Origin: Saccharospirillum sp.
Lineage (GTDB): Bacteria > Pseudomonadota > Gammaproteobacteria > Pseudomonadales > Natronospirillaceae
DNA length: 64,000 nt
Direction: 5' to 3'
NCBI GenBank assembly: GCA_018402545.1
Contig: JAGYIL010000002.1
Coordinates: 310,001-374,000 of the forward strand
Positions 17,971 to 57,889 of this stretch are shown here, piece by piece; the stretch's first letter is position 1; each line of letters begins with the position of its first letter. A program made the translations under genes and the position numbers. The notes under the pieces were generated by a model that made no database searches, was not told the origin of the DNA, and saw only the letters and a list, made by a program, of their open reading frames with translations.

Positions 17971-18083
17971 GCGCCGGCTACCAGGGATGCTCCTGCGGGG
18001 GCGCCGTGAATACCTCCATGTAGGCTTAACTTCGGCATCCATGCCTCAGATACCCCCGCATGAGCATCCCTGGCAGCCGGCGC
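17971..18083. repeat. structured palindromic intergenic repeat, copy 1
   Basis: A 113-bp element just after spoT. The outer arms, 31 bases each (17971-18001 and 18053-18083), pair with about two mismatches. They enclose a core with CCATG, TAGGC and the inner hairpin GGCATCCATGCC. It belongs to the same family as 33599, 40718, 54153 and 54403 but is the most diverged in the core. Same orientation as copies 3 and 4. Short open frames across it are chance. Confidence 0.85.
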
Positions 18084-18156
18084 TAGCCTGTATCGCCAAC
18101 TCCAAAACTTGAACAAATATGCCCCGGCACAACCAGGAAATATCATCTATTCTCAC

Positions 18157-33598: not shown

Positions 33599-33713
33599 GC
33601 GTCAGGTGCCGGTATTGCCTCTGTGGGGGAAGTCCGCAGCAAGGATGCTGCGGTCTAGGCTCCATGGACGGATTCACGCCGACCCCCTCAGAGGCAATAC
33701 CGGTAGCTGACGC
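33599..33713. repeat. structured palindromic intergenic repeat, copy 2
   Basis: Element of about 115 bp between the convergent porin and slmA genes. Outer arms 33599-33629 and 33683-33713 pair with three mismatches. The inner hairpin is CGCAGCAAGGATGCTGCG, and the core reads GTCTAGGCTCCATGGACGG on this strand. Orientation is inverted relative to copies 1, 3 and 4. The inner stem differs from other copies but is again self-complementary. Confidence 0.9.
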
Positions 33714-40717: not shown

Positions 40718-40844
40718 GTGTCCGGCACCGGGTATGCTTATCTGGGTGGTGCGACACTCGACCGGCGTGGACCCATCCATGGGGCCTAGACTTCGGCATC
40801 CATGCCTCAGACTTCCCCAGATAGGCATACCCGGCACCTGACAC
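40718..40844. repeat. structured palindromic intergenic repeat, copy 3 (long form)
   Basis: A 127-bp element between radC and rpmB. Outer arms 40718-40746 and 40816-40844 pair with about five mismatches, mostly at the outer end. It carries the core CCATCCATGGGGCCTAGAC (40773-40791), the inner hairpin GGCATCCATGCC and the extra segment TGGTGCGACACTCG found only here and in copy 5. Same orientation as copies 1 and 4. Confidence 0.9.
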
Positions 40845-40910
40845 TCAGTTGGTGGCGAACGCCGAAACTGGAGTTAATAGGCATTTCGCTCAATTATTCG
40901 CCGCTTTCTC

Positions 40911-44911: not shown

Positions 44912-46066
44912 TCAGGCGTCTTTTTTCGGATCGAACAGGCTGCGGCCTTCATCAGACGGCACGGTGTTCACCAGCGGCTGCTTGGGTGCTGCCGGTTTTT
45001 CAGGTGCCGGTGTCGGTGCGCTGTTGCCCGGGCTACTCACGGCCGGTGCACTGGGTGCTGCCGGCGCGGCTGAGGGTGCCGCTTGCGGTGCTGCCGGTGC
45101 CTTGGGTGCAGGCGCTTTAACCGGGGCTGGTTTTTTTGCAGCTGCTTTTTTCGCCGGCGCTTTCTGGGCGGCCGCTTGCTTCTTGGTAGCGGCCTTCTTG
45201 GCTGTTGCTTTTTTCGGTGCCGCTTTCTTTACGGTTGCTTTAGGTGTGGCTGCCTTTTTGGCGGCGGTTTTCTTGGGGGCTGCTTTTTTCGCCGGCGCTT
45301 TCTTGGCTACGGTTTTCTTGGCAGCGGCTTTCTTCGGTGCAGCCTTTTTAGGGGCAGCTTTGCGGGTGCTTGCCTTTTTGGCAGCAGCTTTTTTCACCGC
45401 TGTCTTTTTGGGTGCTGCACTGGCTGCTGCTTTCTTGGCGGTCGTTTTCTTGGCCGCCGCTTTCTTGGGTTTGGCCTTGGCTTTTTTGGCCTTGGCTTTG
45501 GCGGCTTTGGCAGCCTTGTCGGCGGCTTTCTTGGCAGCGATGGCAGCTTTCTTTTCTTCTGCCTTGCGGACTTTATCCAGCGCTTTGTTCAGAGCATCAG
45601 CCGCTTTTTTCTCATTGGCGGCTGCCACGTAGGCATCCTTGGCGGCGTCGAATTCCTGTTTCAGATCGTCAGCGGCTGATTTGGCAGCCTGATAGGTTGC
45701 CTTGGCCTTGGCCAACTGGCTTTTTGCTGCCTGGGTAGCGCTGCTCTTGGCGCGCAGAGCTGCTGCCTGCTGTTTGGCCTGGGCGGCGGCAACTTTCTTG
45801 CGTGCCGCATCGAATTTTTTCTTGAGCTGGTCACGGGTTTTAGCGCTGTCTGCGACCGTTTTGTCGCGCATCTTTTCGAGTTCAACCTGGAGTTTGCCGA
45901 TTTCTGTTTTCAGGACATCAACCGGTGAGGTCATTGCGGCAGACGAGGCCGTGCGTTTTGCAGCAGTCTTGCGCGTCGCCGGAGTTTTACGCGCGGGTGT
46001 TTTGCGTGCGGCAGTTTTTTTGGCGGTGCGTGTCTTTGGTGTCGCTTTCTTCTTGGCGGCGGCCAT
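44912..46066 (-). CDS. algP: AlgP-like histone H1-like protein
   Basis: A 384-residue protein. The basic N-terminus ([25 protein letters not shown]) is followed by a coiled coil (~50-170), then a low-complexity Lys/Ala/Pro tail of KKAAAKK/KKAAPKK repeats (~190-320) and a Pro/Ala-rich end ([17 protein letters not shown]). This is the AlgP/AlgR3 layout, a DNA-binding regulator of alginate genes in Pseudomonas. Opposite-strand open frames across the repeat are artefacts. The neighbours yheS, TIGR02444 and rsd support the assignment. Confidence 0.88.
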
Positions 46067-49996: not shown

Positions 49997-51547
49997 CTAC
50001 TGCCGTAAATACGACGTCAGGAAGTCGTCGAAACTACCCTGATCTGTTGCTTCTATCTGGCTTTGCTCGTCGAGGCTGCGCTGCGCTGCGCTGGTAAGGG
50101 CTAGATGATCTTCTGCCGCCAGGGTTTCAGGGGCCAGACGCTGACGGTGTTGCTCTGCCAGTTCCAGTGCAGTCTGGCGGAATGAACCCTGTTGTTTGAT
50201 CAGCTCCAGAAACCGGGCCGAGGGCGTCAGTGATACATCGTCTATTTTAGCCAGTTGCTTAGCTACGGCTTGCTGATAACGATCACCGCCAAGCAAGGCA
50301 TCCATTTCCACCGCAAGCTCAGACAGGGAGCTCAATACCTTGTGCCCCTGGTCCTGCAGCCGCACTGATTCGCCCTGAATGTTCAGCTTTAACTCGGGGT
50401 CGCGACCAAAGGCCGCCACATTGAGGTTGTTTTCGCGCAGCTTGAAGCACTCTTCCTTGGGAACCAGGCCGTTATCCTGAACCAGACACCAGAACAGGAA
50501 GAGATCAACAAACACCATGCGGTCGGTATCGACACCCAGGGGGGTAAAGGGGTCGATATCGAGGCAGCGCACTTCAATGTATTCCACGCCCCGCTCGTTC
50601 AGTGCGCGGATGGGTTTTTCTCCACTGCGAGCCACCCGCTTGGGGCGCAGGTCGCTGTAATATTCGTTTTCAATTTGCAGCACATTGGCGCTGATTTGCC
50701 GGTAATCGTCCCCGACCCGGGTACCCAGCGCCTGATAAGCCGGATAGGGCGTGTGAATGGCGTCGGTGAGGGTTTCGGAATAGGTTTGCAGGCTGTTGAA
50801 GCACACATACAAGCTGCTTTGGGCGTTATTGGAGTAGCCCATGTCGCTCATGCGCAGCGTGGTGGCGTACGGTGAGTACAGGGTGTCGTCGCCCAGCGGC
50901 AGCAATTCGGTATGCCCCTTGTGACCAAAGCTGCGGTCGATGGCCGGTGAGGCACCGAACAGATAGAGCAGCAACCAGGAGTGGCGCCGAAAGCCGCGGA
51001 TCAGACCAAAATATTCTTCGTTGATAAAGCGTTGCAGGTCGCCTTCCCAGCCAGACCGTTGCGCCCAGTCCTGCCAGAACTCGGTGGGCATCGACCAGTT
51101 GTAATGCACCCCGGCGATGGTTTGCATGACCCGGCCATAACGGTGCCACAGACCATGACGATAGACGGTTTTCAACCGGCCAACGTGGCTGGTGCCATAC
51201 TGGGCTATGGGGATCTCGGTTTCGGCCGGTAATGCTGAGGGCATGCTCGAAGGCCACAGCTGCTCGTTGGGTAACTGGGTGTAGGTGAACCGGTGCAGAC
51301 GGGCCAGTTCATCCAGGGCGGCTTCGGGCCGGTTATGAACTGAGGTAATAAACTCGAGCAGCGACTCCGAGTAATCGGTGGTGATCGACGGATGCGTCAA
51401 TGCAGACCCCAGGCCTTTCGGGTGCGGCGTCTGCGCCAGGTGCCCTTCACCGTCGACGCGCAGGGTTTCCCGTTCAATACCGCGATTAAAGCGCAGCCAG
51501 TCGGGGTTCAGGTCGGCCAGATGGCCCAGGCGAGTCAGCGTTGGCAA
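49997..51547 (-). CDS. gshA: glutamate-cysteine ligase
   Basis: A 516-residue enzyme, type 1 (proteobacterial) GshA, the first step of glutathione synthesis joining glutamate and cysteine with ATP. Visible motifs: RFNRGIERETLRVDGEGHLA, HPSITTDYSESLLEFIT, MQTIAGVHYNWSMP, and EVRCLDIDPFTPLGVD. The gene stands alone on the minus strand. The promoter region upstream (51548-51658) shows no clear hexamers. Confidence 0.95.
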   Translation of the reverse strand: MPTLTRLGHLADLNPDWLRFNRGIERETLRVDGEGHLAQTPHPKGLGSALTHPSITTDYSESLLEFITSVHNRPEAALDELARLHRFTYTQLPNEQLWPSSMPSALPAETEIPIAQYGTSHVGRLKTVYRHGLWHRYGRVMQTIAGVHYNWSMPTEFWQDWAQRSGWEGDLQRFINEEYFGLIRGFRRHSWLLLYLFGASPAIDRSFGHKGHTELLPLGDDTLYSPYATTLRMSDMGYSNNAQSSLYVCFNSLQTYSETLTDAIHTPYPAYQALGTRVGDDYRQISANVLQIENEYYSDLRPKRVARSGEKPIRALNERGVEYIEVRCLDIDPFTPLGVDTDRMVFVDLFLFWCLVQDNGLVPKEECFKLRENNLNVAAFGRDPELKLNIQGESVRLQDQGHKVLSSLSELAVEMDALLGGDRYQQAVAKQLAKIDDVSLTPSARFLELIKQQGSFRQTALELAEQHRQRLAPETLAAEDHLALTSAAQRSLDEQSQIEATDQGSFDDFLTSYLRQ

Positions 51548-54152: not shown

Positions 54153-54265
54153 GTGCAGGCAGCCGGGTAGTCCTGTTTGGGGTCGGCGTGAACCCGTCCA
54201 TGGGGCCTAGACCGTAGCATCCATGCTACGGACTTCCCCAAACAGGACTACCCGGCCACCTGCAC
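54153..54265. repeat. structured palindromic intergenic repeat, copy 4
   Basis: A 113-bp element. The outer arms of 30 bases (54153-54182 and 54236-54265) pair at 28 of 30 positions. The inner hairpin CCGTAGCATCCATGCTACGG (54212-54231) is a near-perfect palindrome. The core GTCCATGGGGCCTAGAC matches copy 3. The outer and inner stem sequences differ from other copies yet stay paired. Confidence 0.92.
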
Positions 54266-54402
54266 TTGGTTGGTAGCCTGCTCCGGTTTTAGTTCAACAC
54301 TTCCTTTGACAGCAACGATTTCTCGATAGCCTACTGATTTATGAATAAACCCTAAGCCTGTGAAACTTAAATACGGAGGGATGGACGTTGGCAACATTCT
54401 GA

Positions 54403-54529
54403 GTGCTGGCTGCCGGGTGTACCTGTCCGGGGAAGTCCACAGCATGGATGCTGTGGTCTAGGCCCCATGGATGGGTCCACGCCGAGCGAGTGTCGCACCA
54501 CCCGTACAAGTACACCCGGTGGCCAGCAC
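54403..54529. repeat. structured palindromic intergenic repeat, copy 5 (long form)
   Basis: A 127-bp element, inverted relative to copy 4 and 137 bases after it. Outer arms 54403-54432 and 54501-54529 pair with a few mismatches. The core GTCTAGGCCCCATGGATGG (54456-54474) is the exact reverse complement of the copy 3 core. It shares the long-form insert with copy 3. Confidence 0.9.
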
Positions 54530-54563: not shown

Positions 54564-54592
54564 TTGCCTGAGAGCATACCGAACCGCATAAT
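54564..54592 (+). promoter_or_regulatory. promoter of mnmH-selD
   Basis: TTGCCT (54564-54569), a 17-base spacer, and CATAAT (54587-54592), placed 32 bases before the mnmH GTG. It is immediately downstream of repeat copy 5. Confidence 0.5.
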
Positions 54593-54624: not shown

Positions 54625-55731
54625 GTGCGCGACCCCCACCGCGACGACATTGACGCCAGCCTGGATCTGCTGCTCGACCAGACGCCGTTTATGGATGTGC
54701 GCGCCCCTGTTGAATTTGAACATGGTGCCATTCCTGGCGCGGTTAATGTGCCGATTCTTGATGATGATCAGCGGGCTGCCATTGGTACCCGGTATAAAGA
54801 GTCGGGCCAGGACGCTGCCATTGAGCTGGGTCTGGAACTGGCGACGCCTGACATTCGTGCCGAGCGCCTTGATGCCTGGGCGACGTTTGCCCGGCAGCAT
54901 CCAAATGGCTATCTCTACTGTTTTAGGGGTGGTTTGCGCTCCAATACCACTCAGGCCTGGCTGCGCGAAGCGGGTATTCACTATCCGCTGGTGCGCGGTG
55001 GTTACAAGGCGCTGCGCCGGGTTCTGATTGATGCGTTCGACGAGCGCCTGGCGACTCGCACCTTGCAGGTGCTGGCGGGGCCGACTGGCAGCGGCAAGAC
55101 GGAAGTGATTCATGCCTGGCCCGTCAGTCTGGATCTGGAAGGCCGTGCCGGACATCGCGGCAGTGCCTTTGGCGCGACCTTTACGCCGCAACCGGCGCAG
55201 ATTGACTGGGAAAATCAGATTTCTCTGGATTGGGCGCGTCTGGATGGCCATGGCGACGTGCCTGTGCTGGTCGAAGACGAAGCGCATTTGATCGGTCGCA
55301 TTCATCTGATCCCCGAGTTGCACCAGCGCATGCAGGCCTCTCCGGTCATCGCACTGGAAGCGCCGATGCAGGAGCGGGTTGACCGCCTGCTTGATGACTA
55401 TGTGAACCATGCGCTGCAGCATTTCAGTCGGCAAGAACCTGAAAACCCCTGGCCCTTGCTAGGTGACTATGTGAGCCAGAACCTGCGGCGCATTCGTAAA
55501 CGCCTGGGCGGGGTGCGCCATGAGCAACTGCAACAAGCCGTACCGGACGCGGTAGATGCGATGGCCCGGCAGCGGGATCCGGGCGGCTTTAACCACATTA
55601 TCGAAACCCTGCTGACCGATTATTACGACCCCATGTATCAGTACCAACTCAGTGGCCGGGCTGACCAGGTCGTGTTCCGGGGTGACGCCCGGGCCGTGCT
55701 CGACTGGCTGGAGCACCAGCGCCATGTTTGA
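54625..55731 (+). CDS. mnmH: tRNA 2-selenouridine synthase MnmH
   Basis: A 368-residue enzyme that uses selenophosphate to change the 2-thiouridine at the wobble position of certain tRNAs into 2-selenouridine. The N-terminal rhodanese domain has the catalytic Cys in LYCFRGGLRSNTTQ (C99); a P-loop domain has LAGPTGSGKTE (152-160). It starts with GTG (AGAGG upstream). Its 3' end overlaps the FAD-SelD gene by 8 bases, tying selenophosphate supply to its user. Confidence 0.93.
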   Translation: MRDPHRDDIDASLDLLLDQTPFMDVRAPVEFEHGAIPGAVNVPILDDDQRAAIGTRYKESGQDAAIELGLELATPDIRAERLDAWATFARQHPNGYLYCFRGGLRSNTTQAWLREAGIHYPLVRGGYKALRRVLIDAFDERLATRTLQVLAGPTGSGKTEVIHAWPVSLDLEGRAGHRGSAFGATFTPQPAQIDWENQISLDWARLDGHGDVPVLVEDEAHLIGRIHLIPELHQRMQASPVIALEAPMQERVDRLLDDYVNHALQHFSRQEPENPWPLLGDYVSQNLRRIRKRLGGVRHEQLQQAVPDAVDAMARQRDPGGFNHIIETLLTDYYDPMYQYQLSGRADQVVFRGDARAVLDWLEHQRHV

Positions 55732-57889
55732 ACGCGATCTCGTTCTGGTCGGTGGCGGCCATACGCATGCTTTGTTGATTCGAACGCTGGCCATGAAGCC
55801 AATACCGGGAGTGCGGGTAACACTGGTATCGGAGTCGACGCTGACGCCCTACTCCGGCATGTTGCCCGGCCTGGTTGCCGGACATTACCGGGCTGTCGAG
55901 GTGCACATCGACCTGAATCGGTTATGCCGCTGGGCCGGTATTCGCTTTATTCAGGGTCGGGTGACCGGTGTAAACCCTTCAGCCAAAACCCTGTCTGTGC
56001 AGCACCAGCCCACCCTCTCTTACGACAAAGTCTCCTTCGATACCGGTTCCACGCCCGATCTCAGCCTGCCCGGTGCGCGCAGTTTTGCCGTTGGGGTCAA
56101 GCCGGTTAGCCGGTTCTATGCAAAATGGCAGCAGCTACTGAGCAGTCATGACCGGGAGCGCAACACCGACACCCGACACTGGGGCGTGGTCGGAGCAGGC
56201 GCTGGCGGGGTTGAGCTGGTGCTGGCCATGGCGCACTGTCTGGGGCCGGATCGCGACGTGCAACTGCACCTGATTTACCCGGGCGACCGCATACTAAGTG
56301 GCTACCCCGAACGATCAGCACGGGCGGCCGAAAAAGCCCTGCACCGGTATGGGGTGGTCTGCCATTCCAACTTCAAAGTTGCCGCCGTGAAGAAAAGCGG
56401 GCTGGTGGCTGCCAACGGCAATGCGCTGTCACTCGACCAGACCATCTGGTGCACCAGAGCGGCGGGTCCGGAGTTTCTGAGCCAGAGCGGTCTGGACGTG
56501 ACACCTGCTGGCTTTATCTCCGTCAATCGCTACCTGCAAAGCACCTCGCACCCGGATGTGTTCGCCGCCGGTGACGTCGCCGATATGGTGTTTGACCCAC
56601 GGCCCAAGGCCGGTGTCTATGCGGTACGTCAGGCGCCGTTTCTGTATGAGAACCTCAAGCTCGCCTTTGCCAGCCAGCCAATGAAACCCGCGCGTTTGCA
56701 GAAACAGTTTCTGTCACTGTTGTCGCTGGGTGACCGCCAGGCTGTTGGTCACCGGGGCCCGTTCGTCGCCAGCGGTGCCTGGGTCTGGCGCTGGAAAGAC
56801 CGGATAGACCGTGCGTTCATGGAGAAATTTCAGTCGCTGGGCGCGCCGAAAATGATGGCCACCATGCCCACCGGAGCAGAGGCCGAGATGCACTGCGCCG
56901 GTTGCGGCAGCAAACTGGGCCCGGCGATTTTGCACGATACCCTGAGCACTCTGCCGCGCATGAACAAACCCGGTCTGACCCCGGCTCTGGAAGCCGCCGA
57001 AGACGCCAGCCTGTGGCAACCGACCCCGGGCCTGACCCAGGTGCAAAGCCTCGATGGTTTTCGTAGCTTCAATGACGATCTGTACCGTTTCGGCCAGGTC
57101 TGCGTAAACCACGCCCTGAGTGACCTGTACGCCATGGGCGCGCAACCGGTCTCGGCCCAGGTCTGGATCAACCTGGCCCACGCCCACCCGCGCTTGCACA
57201 AAGCGGATTTCCAGCGACTGATGCGTGGCATTCACCGGGCATTGAGTGACCAACAGGTAGCGCTGGCGGGTGGACACAGCACCGAAGGCGCGGAAACCCA
57301 TGTTGCGGTCGTCGCCAACGGCGAAGTCGACCCGGCCCGTCTGTGGCGTAAAACCGGAGCACAACCCGGCGATGTTCTGATTCTGACCAAGGCACTTGGT
57401 ACCGGCGTGATCTGGGCGTCAGATGCCGCCGCCCAGGCTCCTGCCGGAGCGGTTTCAGCGGCCTGGGAGAGCATGCTGGTCAGCCAGAAAGCCGCCTGGG
57501 AAGTACTGCAAACACTGGAACCCCATGCCGTTACTGACGTCACCGGTTTTGGCCTGCTGGGTCACCTACTGGAAATGGTCAGCGGCGATGAGATAGAAGC
57601 CCACCTAAATCTGAACGCCATCCCCGCCCTGCCCGGTGCTCGCGACCTGTTGGAGCAGGGCTTTCGCTCCAGTTTGCACCCTCAGTTAATGCCCTACACG
57701 CTGGAATGCAGTGGGCTTGAATCTGTTAGCGAGGCTGATATTGCTTTGCTGATCGATCCTCAGACTTCAGGTGGCTTGTTGGTAGCCCTCGACCCGGATC
57801 AGGCAGAAATCTTTCTCGGCCAACTACCGGATGCCCGAGCTATTGGTCAGATTGCGCATCGGTCTGAGAATAGGAAGGTGGTGGTTTAA
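55724..57889 (+). CDS. selD: FAD-dependent oxidoreductase fused to selenide, water dikinase SelD
   Basis: A 721-residue fusion. The N-terminal half (residues 1-~375) is an NDH-2-like FAD/NAD(P)-binding oxidoreductase: LVLVGGGHTHALL at 7-19 for FAD, GVVGAGAGGVELVLAMA for NAD(P), and VFAAGDVADM near the end. The C-terminal half is SelD: HCAGCGSKLG (catalytic Cys and Lys, residues ~389-397), HALSDLYAMGAQPV, GGHSTEGAETHVA and TDVTGFGLLGHLLEM. It makes selenophosphate; the oxidoreductase may supply or sense selenium redox state. The active-site residue is Cys, not selenocysteine. ATG 55724 overlaps the mnmH stop. Confidence 0.93.
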   Translation: MFERDLVLVGGGHTHALLIRTLAMKPIPGVRVTLVSESTLTPYSGMLPGLVAGHYRAVEVHIDLNRLCRWAGIRFIQGRVTGVNPSAKTLSVQHQPTLSYDKVSFDTGSTPDLSLPGARSFAVGVKPVSRFYAKWQQLLSSHDRERNTDTRHWGVVGAGAGGVELVLAMAHCLGPDRDVQLHLIYPGDRILSGYPERSARAAEKALHRYGVVCHSNFKVAAVKKSGLVAANGNALSLDQTIWCTRAAGPEFLSQSGLDVTPAGFISVNRYLQSTSHPDVFAAGDVADMVFDPRPKAGVYAVRQAPFLYENLKLAFASQPMKPARLQKQFLSLLSLGDRQAVGHRGPFVASGAWVWRWKDRIDRAFMEKFQSLGAPKMMATMPTGAEAEMHCAGCGSKLGPAILHDTLSTLPRMNKPGLTPALEAAEDASLWQPTPGLTQVQSLDGFRSFNDDLYRFGQVCVNHALSDLYAMGAQPVSAQVWINLAHAHPRLHKADFQRLMRGIHRALSDQQVALAGGHSTEGAETHVAVVANGEVDPARLWRKTGAQPGDVLILTKALGTGVIWASDAAAQAPAGAVSAAWESMLVSQKAAWEVLQTLEPHAVTDVTGFGLLGHLLEMVSGDEIEAHLNLNAIPALPGARDLLEQGFRSSLHPQLMPYTLECSGLESVSEADIALLIDPQTSGGLLVALDPDQAEIFLGQLPDARAIGQIAHRSENRKVVV

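Follow-up and report, generated by a model that had tools for sequence, protein, structure and literature searches.

An mnmH gene overlapping an Ndh-SelD fusion as the sole selenium use detected in a Saccharospirillum genome

A window of 64,000 nucleotides from Saccharospirillum sp. (assembly GCA_018402545.1, contig JAGYIL010000002.1, positions 310,001 to 374,000) contains two overlapping genes, mnmH (ybbB/selU), encoding tRNA 2-selenouridine synthase, and a gene in which selenophosphate synthase (SelD) is fused behind a flavin adenine dinucleotide (FAD) and NAD(P)H oxidoreductase, the Ndh-SelD fusion. The pair is probably an operon for those steps of the tRNA 2-selenouridine pathway that are specific to selenium, and the FAD half of the fusion may reduce a C-x-x-C pair in the SelD active site, the selenium itself, or both. 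The fusion is not specific to tRNA modification, since in relatives it pairs with MnmH, with SenB of the selenoneine pathway or with SelA. A preliminary description of this DNA had called the pair a selenium tRNA-modification unit, which holds for this genome and does not extend to the fusion as such.

The mnmH and Ndh-SelD pair

In profile searches the product of 54625-55731 scored 449.2 bits against NF008751 and 318.1 bits against TIGR03167, above the respective cut-offs of 361 and 219.75. Its rhodanese domain has Cys99 within a C-x-x-G motif (C-F-R-G), by motif the counterpart of the catalytic Cys97 of Salmonella MnmH, and the lysine of its Walker A sequence, GPTGSGKT, corresponds in the same way to K155. 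According to PMC4830565, Cys97 is needed for selenation and K155 for geranylation. Both residues are kept at all 77 loci with mnmH (window copy included) among the 128 searched. Family and motifs thus identify the protein as MnmH and predict selenation of mnm5s2U tRNA. A scan of viral contigs gave no close mnmH.

The second gene encodes both halves of the fusion in one frame. The N-terminal part matches TIGR03169 (Nterm_to_SelD) with 456 bits (cut-off 310) and the C-terminal part TIGR00476 (SelD) with 256.5 bits (cut-off 125). TIGR04369 (fusion_not_SelD) was rejected as its family because the score of 458 bits lies below the curated cut-off of 700. In a mechanical list of open reading frames this frame begins earlier, at GTG 55652; the start was set at ATG 55724 because the FAD motif and the relatives place it there. 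With this start the fusion overlaps mnmH by eight nucleotides (ATGTTTGA), in agreement with the preliminary description, and the overlap is of the kind associated with translational coupling. An overlap of identical length occurs in a congener (G184; G and L numbers denote genomes and loci, respectively), and overlaps of 1-37 nucleotides are found in a number of relatives. Given full-length matches above curated cut-offs, together with the same 8-nucleotide overlap in G184, the pair is not a product of chance. It borders a divergent S1-domain gene upstream, taken to be tex, and the convergent pbpC downstream, so the unit consists of mnmH and the fusion alone.

The FAD half carries an FAD motif (GGGH, residues 10-13) and an NAD(P)H motif (GAGAGG, residues 157-162). 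A predicted structure of the whole fusion reached a predicted local distance difference test score of 93.1 and a predicted template modeling score (pTM) of 0.92, with a poorly modeled linker at residues 382-386; from the high pTM, the relative placement of the two similar-sized domains is taken to be firmly predicted. In fold comparison NDH-2 enzymes come closest to the FAD half, with TM-scores (by target length) of 0.82-0.86 in the top rows, followed by sulfide:quinone reductase (SQR; 0.73-0.76), so the earlier label "NDH-2-like" was apt. SQR carries conserved redox cysteines. No cysteine of the FAD half is invariant across 21 class fusions or across 50 aligned fusions (that of the window plus 49 of 58 complete frames from 80 fused loci), and identity with SQR was rejected on this ground. 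The FAD half shares the fold of NDH-2 and SQR but differs in its fusion to SelD and in having no invariant cysteine.

The SelD half matches the folds of the E. coli and Aquifex SelD. Residues C391, C394, K397, D427, D467 and D605 are invariant in the same alignments of 21 and 50 fusions. C394 and K397 occupy the place of the G-C-x-C-K motif of solo SelD, and C394, K397, D427, D467 and D605 presumably cover the known catalytic positions of the E. coli enzyme.

To what use the selenophosphate is put was assessed across the genome (G000), an assembly of 4.25 Mb in 11 contigs that is 95.19% complete. SelD occurs once, as the fusion, and there is no match to SelA. SelB gave eight matches, none above cut-off, in a search in which all 14 control genomes gave matches and 2 of them exceeded the cut-off; the eight presumably represent other translation GTPases, EF-Tu among them. 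The tRNA-Sec search gave nine matches, again none above cut-off (controls: matches in all 14, above cut-off in 5). Eight of the nine are tRNAs for Leu, Gly, Ser, Lys, Lys, Ser, Phe and Cys, and the ninth scored 30.3 bits. SenB (TIGR04348, so identified by NCBIfam and Protein Data Bank names, checked with one of 12 matches) and TIGR03172 (YqeC) had no match, SenA and YqeB not having been searched for. The genome thus shows the selenouridine-only pattern, with SelD and MnmH present and SelA, SelB, tRNA-Sec and YqeC not found, and tRNA 2-selenouridine is the sole selenium use detected, individual selenoprotein families lying outside the search. This bears out the suggestion in the preliminary description that selenium serves mainly tRNA 2-selenouridine; the genome-wide check it proposed, for a selenocysteine system sharing selD, turned up none. 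Sampled relatives agree (own genome counted; SelA at E <= 1e-20): SelD is present in 6/6 genomes of the genus and 18/22 of the family, SelA in 0/6 and 0/22.

Linkage and partners of the fusion in relatives

Within the sampled family, mnmH lies on the same strand and within 0.8 kb of the fusion in every genome with fused SelD (15/15, the window and 14 relatives). With gene starts set mechanically, the two genes overlap by 4-37 nucleotides in seven of these relatives, are spaced by 29 to ~140 nucleotides in three and by ~0.7-0.8 kb in four. The four wide-spaced genomes (G198, G202, G203 and G204; L218, L221, L222 and L223) belong to one genus, and between mnmH and the fusion each has a gene for a hydrophobic membrane protein of ~260 residues, possibly related to selenium. 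The G198 copy matched no NCBIfam family and one Pfam family, far below cut-off. Three genomes (G197, G202 and G203; L217, L221 and L222) encode a canonical solo SelD in addition to the fused one, a possible division of labor; the fused copies score low for SelD in G202 (195 bits) and G203 (211 bits).

The gene order varies within the genus. In the window genome, G184 and G187, mnmH comes first, and in G185, G186 and G188 (L213, L210 and L214) the fusion does. MnmH of the latter three is 40-44% identical to that of the window, compared with 68% in G187 and 85% in G184, and the two halves of their fusions retain 66-68% and 59-61% identity. The sequences are most simply explained by replacement of mnmH with a distant homolog in three congeners, followed by renewed linkage to the fusion, and this speaks for selection to keep the partners together. 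Apparent three-part MnmH-FAD-SelD fusions in G186 (1154 residues) and G187 (998 residues) were dismissed, as both frames extend upstream of the true start and mnmH is encoded in a frame of its own.

A wider sample of the class comprised 184 genomes, searched at E limits of 1e-20 or 1e-30. SelD was found in 42, MnmH in 29 (28 above cut-off; G044 partial), SenB in 12 and SelA in 6, and every genome with MnmH (29/29), SelA or SenB also has SelD. TIGR03169 exceeded its cut-off in 25 genomes, in 21 as fused-length frames and in 4 as frames of 387-446 residues; SelD is present in 24 of these 25 compared with 18 of the 159 others (kinship ignored). All 21 fused genomes have a gene that uses the product: MnmH only in eight, MnmH and SenB in five, SenB only in six and SelA only in two. 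The idea of orphan fused SelDs was dropped, since SenB is present in each of the six fused genomes that lack both MnmH and SelA. The 22 genomes with solo SelD include 16 with MnmH (G145 with SelA as well, G091 with SenB as well, and G044 with its partial MnmH only), three with SelA only and two with neither (G106 and G114), plus G137, in which fused and solo SelD are both present. Thus 11 of the 12 SenB genomes have fused SelD, and in the twelfth, G091, a solo SelD adjoins senB and an unfused TIGR03169 gene lies 1.8 kb off. The frequency of SenB differs between fused and solo genomes (p = 0.003), whereas MnmH (p = 0.53) and SelA (p = 0.66) are alike in the two (Fisher tests, kinship ignored). 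Where MnmH is the only partner, mnmH and the fusion are same-strand neighbors in 7/8 genomes; where SenB is also present, mnmH is far off or on another contig in 5/5 (different contigs in G038 and G165). In G207, of the same order as the window, the fusion beside mnmH is the only SelD, and SelA is also present.

Of the 80 fused loci taken from named genomes (the best of more matches, with flanks of up to 8 kb; mnmH sought with queries from 10 of 28 mnmH loci), mnmH is near the fused SelD in 32, senB in 9 and selA in 1 (L165); 41 have at least one of the three nearby and 39 have none, among the matches listed. By record title, the fusions listed come from several phyla. A SelD tree of 113 rows (91 fused and 22 solo domains, the latter from the class sample only), built by a quick search without bootstraps and with the C-x-x-C stretch excluded, parts fused from solo SelD by one branch with a Shimodaira-Hasegawa-like approximate likelihood ratio test (SH-aLRT) support of 100. 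The window SelD groups with those of G047, G170 and G054 (SH-aLRT 96), and this group differs from other Ndh-SelD fusions in its long SelD branches and in keeping mnmH attached. SenB status requires a single change on the tree (over the 21 fused class rows), and the presence of mnmH directly upstream requires three (over the 91 fused rows).

The C-x-x-C active site occurs in 21/21 class fusions, in 20/20 further relatives and in 80/80 of the named loci listed, 70 of which had been picked by a filter that included this motif; the other 10, read without the filter, all have it (among these, L121 and L195 end at a contig edge and the frame of L151 is split). It is found in none of the 21 Cys-type solo SelDs. 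The remaining solo SelD, that of G117 (L068), a genome with SelA, has an in-frame TGA as its catalytic codon and reads C-x-x-U. A general tie between C-x-x-C and the FAD protein was rejected, because G064, G091 and G092 combine an unfused TIGR03169 protein with a solo SelD that has no C-x-x-C.

Much of this has precedent. The Ndh-SelD (COG1252-SelD) fusion is described (PMC2432076, PMC2398784, PMC4561486) and reported mostly from aquatic organisms (PMC2398784, PMC2432076, PMC4561486), its C-x-x-C is noted (PMC2398784), and the oxidoreductase is proposed as a selenium reductant (PMC2432076). The selD-ybbB operon, in which adjacent genes encode the synthesis of selenophosphate and its use in tRNA, is known as well (PMC1273633, PMC2432076), and two cyanobacteria with an extended SelD and ybbB but without Sec, the two genes not being contiguous, were reported in 2005 (PMC1273633). 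Previously published, accordingly, are the reductase idea, the fusion itself, the pairing of selD with mnmH in an operon and the occurrence of fused SelD in selenouridine-only bacteria. The window shares the domain order and active-site C-x-x-C of the known Ndh-SelD fusion (COG1252-SelD; TIGR03169), with no essential difference, and shares the pairing of the selD-ybbB operon, with the fused form as the SelD partner. The sen cluster (SenA, SenB, SenC) likewise links selenophosphate synthase to a gene that uses its product, but in the window that gene is mnmH, and the genome has no SenB match. PMC4561486 reports selenoproteins and Sec machinery in all genomes with extended SPS genes; of the fused class genomes here, only 2/21 have a SelA match (SelB and tRNA-Sec were not searched for in the others). 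A link between fused SelD and SenB was not found in a literature search that lacked the primary selenoneine paper (Nature 2022); this link is the freshest point here and may already be published.

Features and surroundings of the pair

The coordinates of the pair and its parts are collected in the table. A weak sigma-70-like match lies directly 5' of mnmH; two such matches were found in the region compared with 0.9 expected. The gap 5' of mnmH also holds two inverted copies of a palindromic repeat, which are probably incidental to the two-gene unit. Further copies are present at 18002-18095, 33603-33686 and 40763-40856, in addition to those at 54160-54267 (+) and 54402-54485 (-), and several form inverted pairs. 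There are at least 48 matches in the genome at E <= 0.001 (best 40 of 217 candidates scored). The repeat folds far better than its shuffled versions (z -6.96), has no Rfam match and appears by sequence to be of the REP/MITE type. An Rfam scan of the window gave nothing above the gathering score.

Two other features of the window were observed. A gshA gene for glutamate-cysteine ligase (TIGR01434, 587.5 bits; 49997-51547, minus strand) lies one gene past the tex-like gene, 3 kb from mnmH. Imperfect repeats with a period of ~15 bp at 45098-45364 perhaps belong to an alanine/lysine-rich repeat protein.

Table. Positions within the window of the two genes, their domains and nearby elements
Feature	Position	Strand	Details
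mnmH (ybbB/selU), tRNA 2-selenouridine synthase	54625..55731	+	GTG start, TGA stop, 368 aa
Ndh-SelD fusion (FAD/NAD(P)H oxidoreductase-selenophosphate synthase)	55724..57889	+	ATG start, TAA stop, 721 aa
8-nt mnmH/fusion overlap	55724..55731	+	read from sequence
NDH-2-like N-terminal domain of fusion	55736..56830	+	TIGR03169, residues 5-369
C-terminal SelD domain of fusion	56888..57802	+	TIGR00476, residues 389-693
SelD active-site motif C391-A-G-C394-G-S-K397	56894..56914	+	C-x-x-C
Sigma-70-like promoter match TTGCCT-17-CATAAT	54564..54592	+	directly 5' of mnmH, weak
Two inverted copies of dispersed ~105-bp palindromic repeat	54160..54485		gap 5' of mnmH

Possible roles of the FAD half

In the proposed pathway, the SelD half would make selenophosphate from ATP and reduced selenium. 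The FAD half, docked on it, would draw electrons from NAD(P)H and keep the C391-x-x-C394 pair, bound selenium or both reduced, so that selenide is delivered at C394 and K397. MnmH, translated from the same message, would then use selenophosphate to swap the sulfur of (c)mnm5s2U34 for selenium in tRNA-Lys, tRNA-Glu and tRNA-Gln. The two enzyme activities and the co-transcription are expected from what is known of the families, whereas a reduction of selenium or of the C-x-x-C pair by the FAD half is an inference.

Several observations weigh against this pathway. With no invariant cysteine in the FAD half, neither SQR-like nor disulfide-reductase chemistry can be read from it, and its electrons could, as in NDH-2, go to a quinone. 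Because fused SelDs form one clade, the coincidence of C-x-x-C with the fusion counts as one evolutionary event and not as many, and because G064, G091 and G092 have no C-x-x-C, the FAD protein does not need the motif in trans. The two genes are not neighbors in 6 of the 13 class genomes that have both. G140 (L038) encodes a TIGR03169 protein of 390 residues (415 bits) and has no SelD match at E <= 1e-30; either SelD is missing from this genome or the FAD protein has another role. Finally, at 95.19% completeness in 11 contigs, a gene of the window genome could have been missed.

Some of these points favor a different account of the FAD half, as a quinone- or oxygen-linked NADH dehydrogenase without selenium chemistry, the fusion serving only to tie expression or location together while SelD receives selenide by the usual thiol route. 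The NDH-2 folds, the lack of an invariant cysteine and the FAD protein of G140 are all consistent with it. It is nevertheless rather unlikely, as TIGR03169 exceeds its cut-off almost only together with SelD, fused or not (24/25 genomes), the fusion recurs in several phyla by the titles of the records listed, and the model predicts a fixed packing of the two halves. It is less likely still that the fused SelD of this genome also feeds an unrecognized selenium product, such as a selenometabolite or a labile cofactor, with tRNA as one of several uses. SenB does accompany 11/21 fused class genomes, and G207 has SelA as well as mnmH, but the window genome has no SenB or YqeC match, mnmH is directly attached to the fusion, and the flanking genes point away from or toward the unit and not along it. 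That a selenocysteine system sharing selD sits in the missing 5% of the assembly is very improbable: incompleteness allows it, but SelA, SelB and tRNA-Sec would all have to have been missed, and SelA is absent from all 22 sampled family genomes.

A two-gene operon for the selenium-specific part of the 2-selenouridine pathway thus remains the preferred reading. A broader proposal is advanced tentatively, as somewhat doubtful, namely that the fusion suffices by itself as an NAD(P)H-driven selenophosphate synthase and is also an interchangeable selenium-activation head for mnmH, senAB and, rarely, selenocysteine. Flavin electrons would pass by way of the invariant C-x-x-C to selenium in the SelD active site, and oxidized selenium, elemental or derived from selenite, would be accepted without glutathione or thioredoxin. 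In the window genome a single two-gene operon covers all the selenium use detected, a clean natural case, so that the role of the fusion could be read from one product, 2-selenouridine. Across the relatives, fused SelD is common to three uses of selenium.

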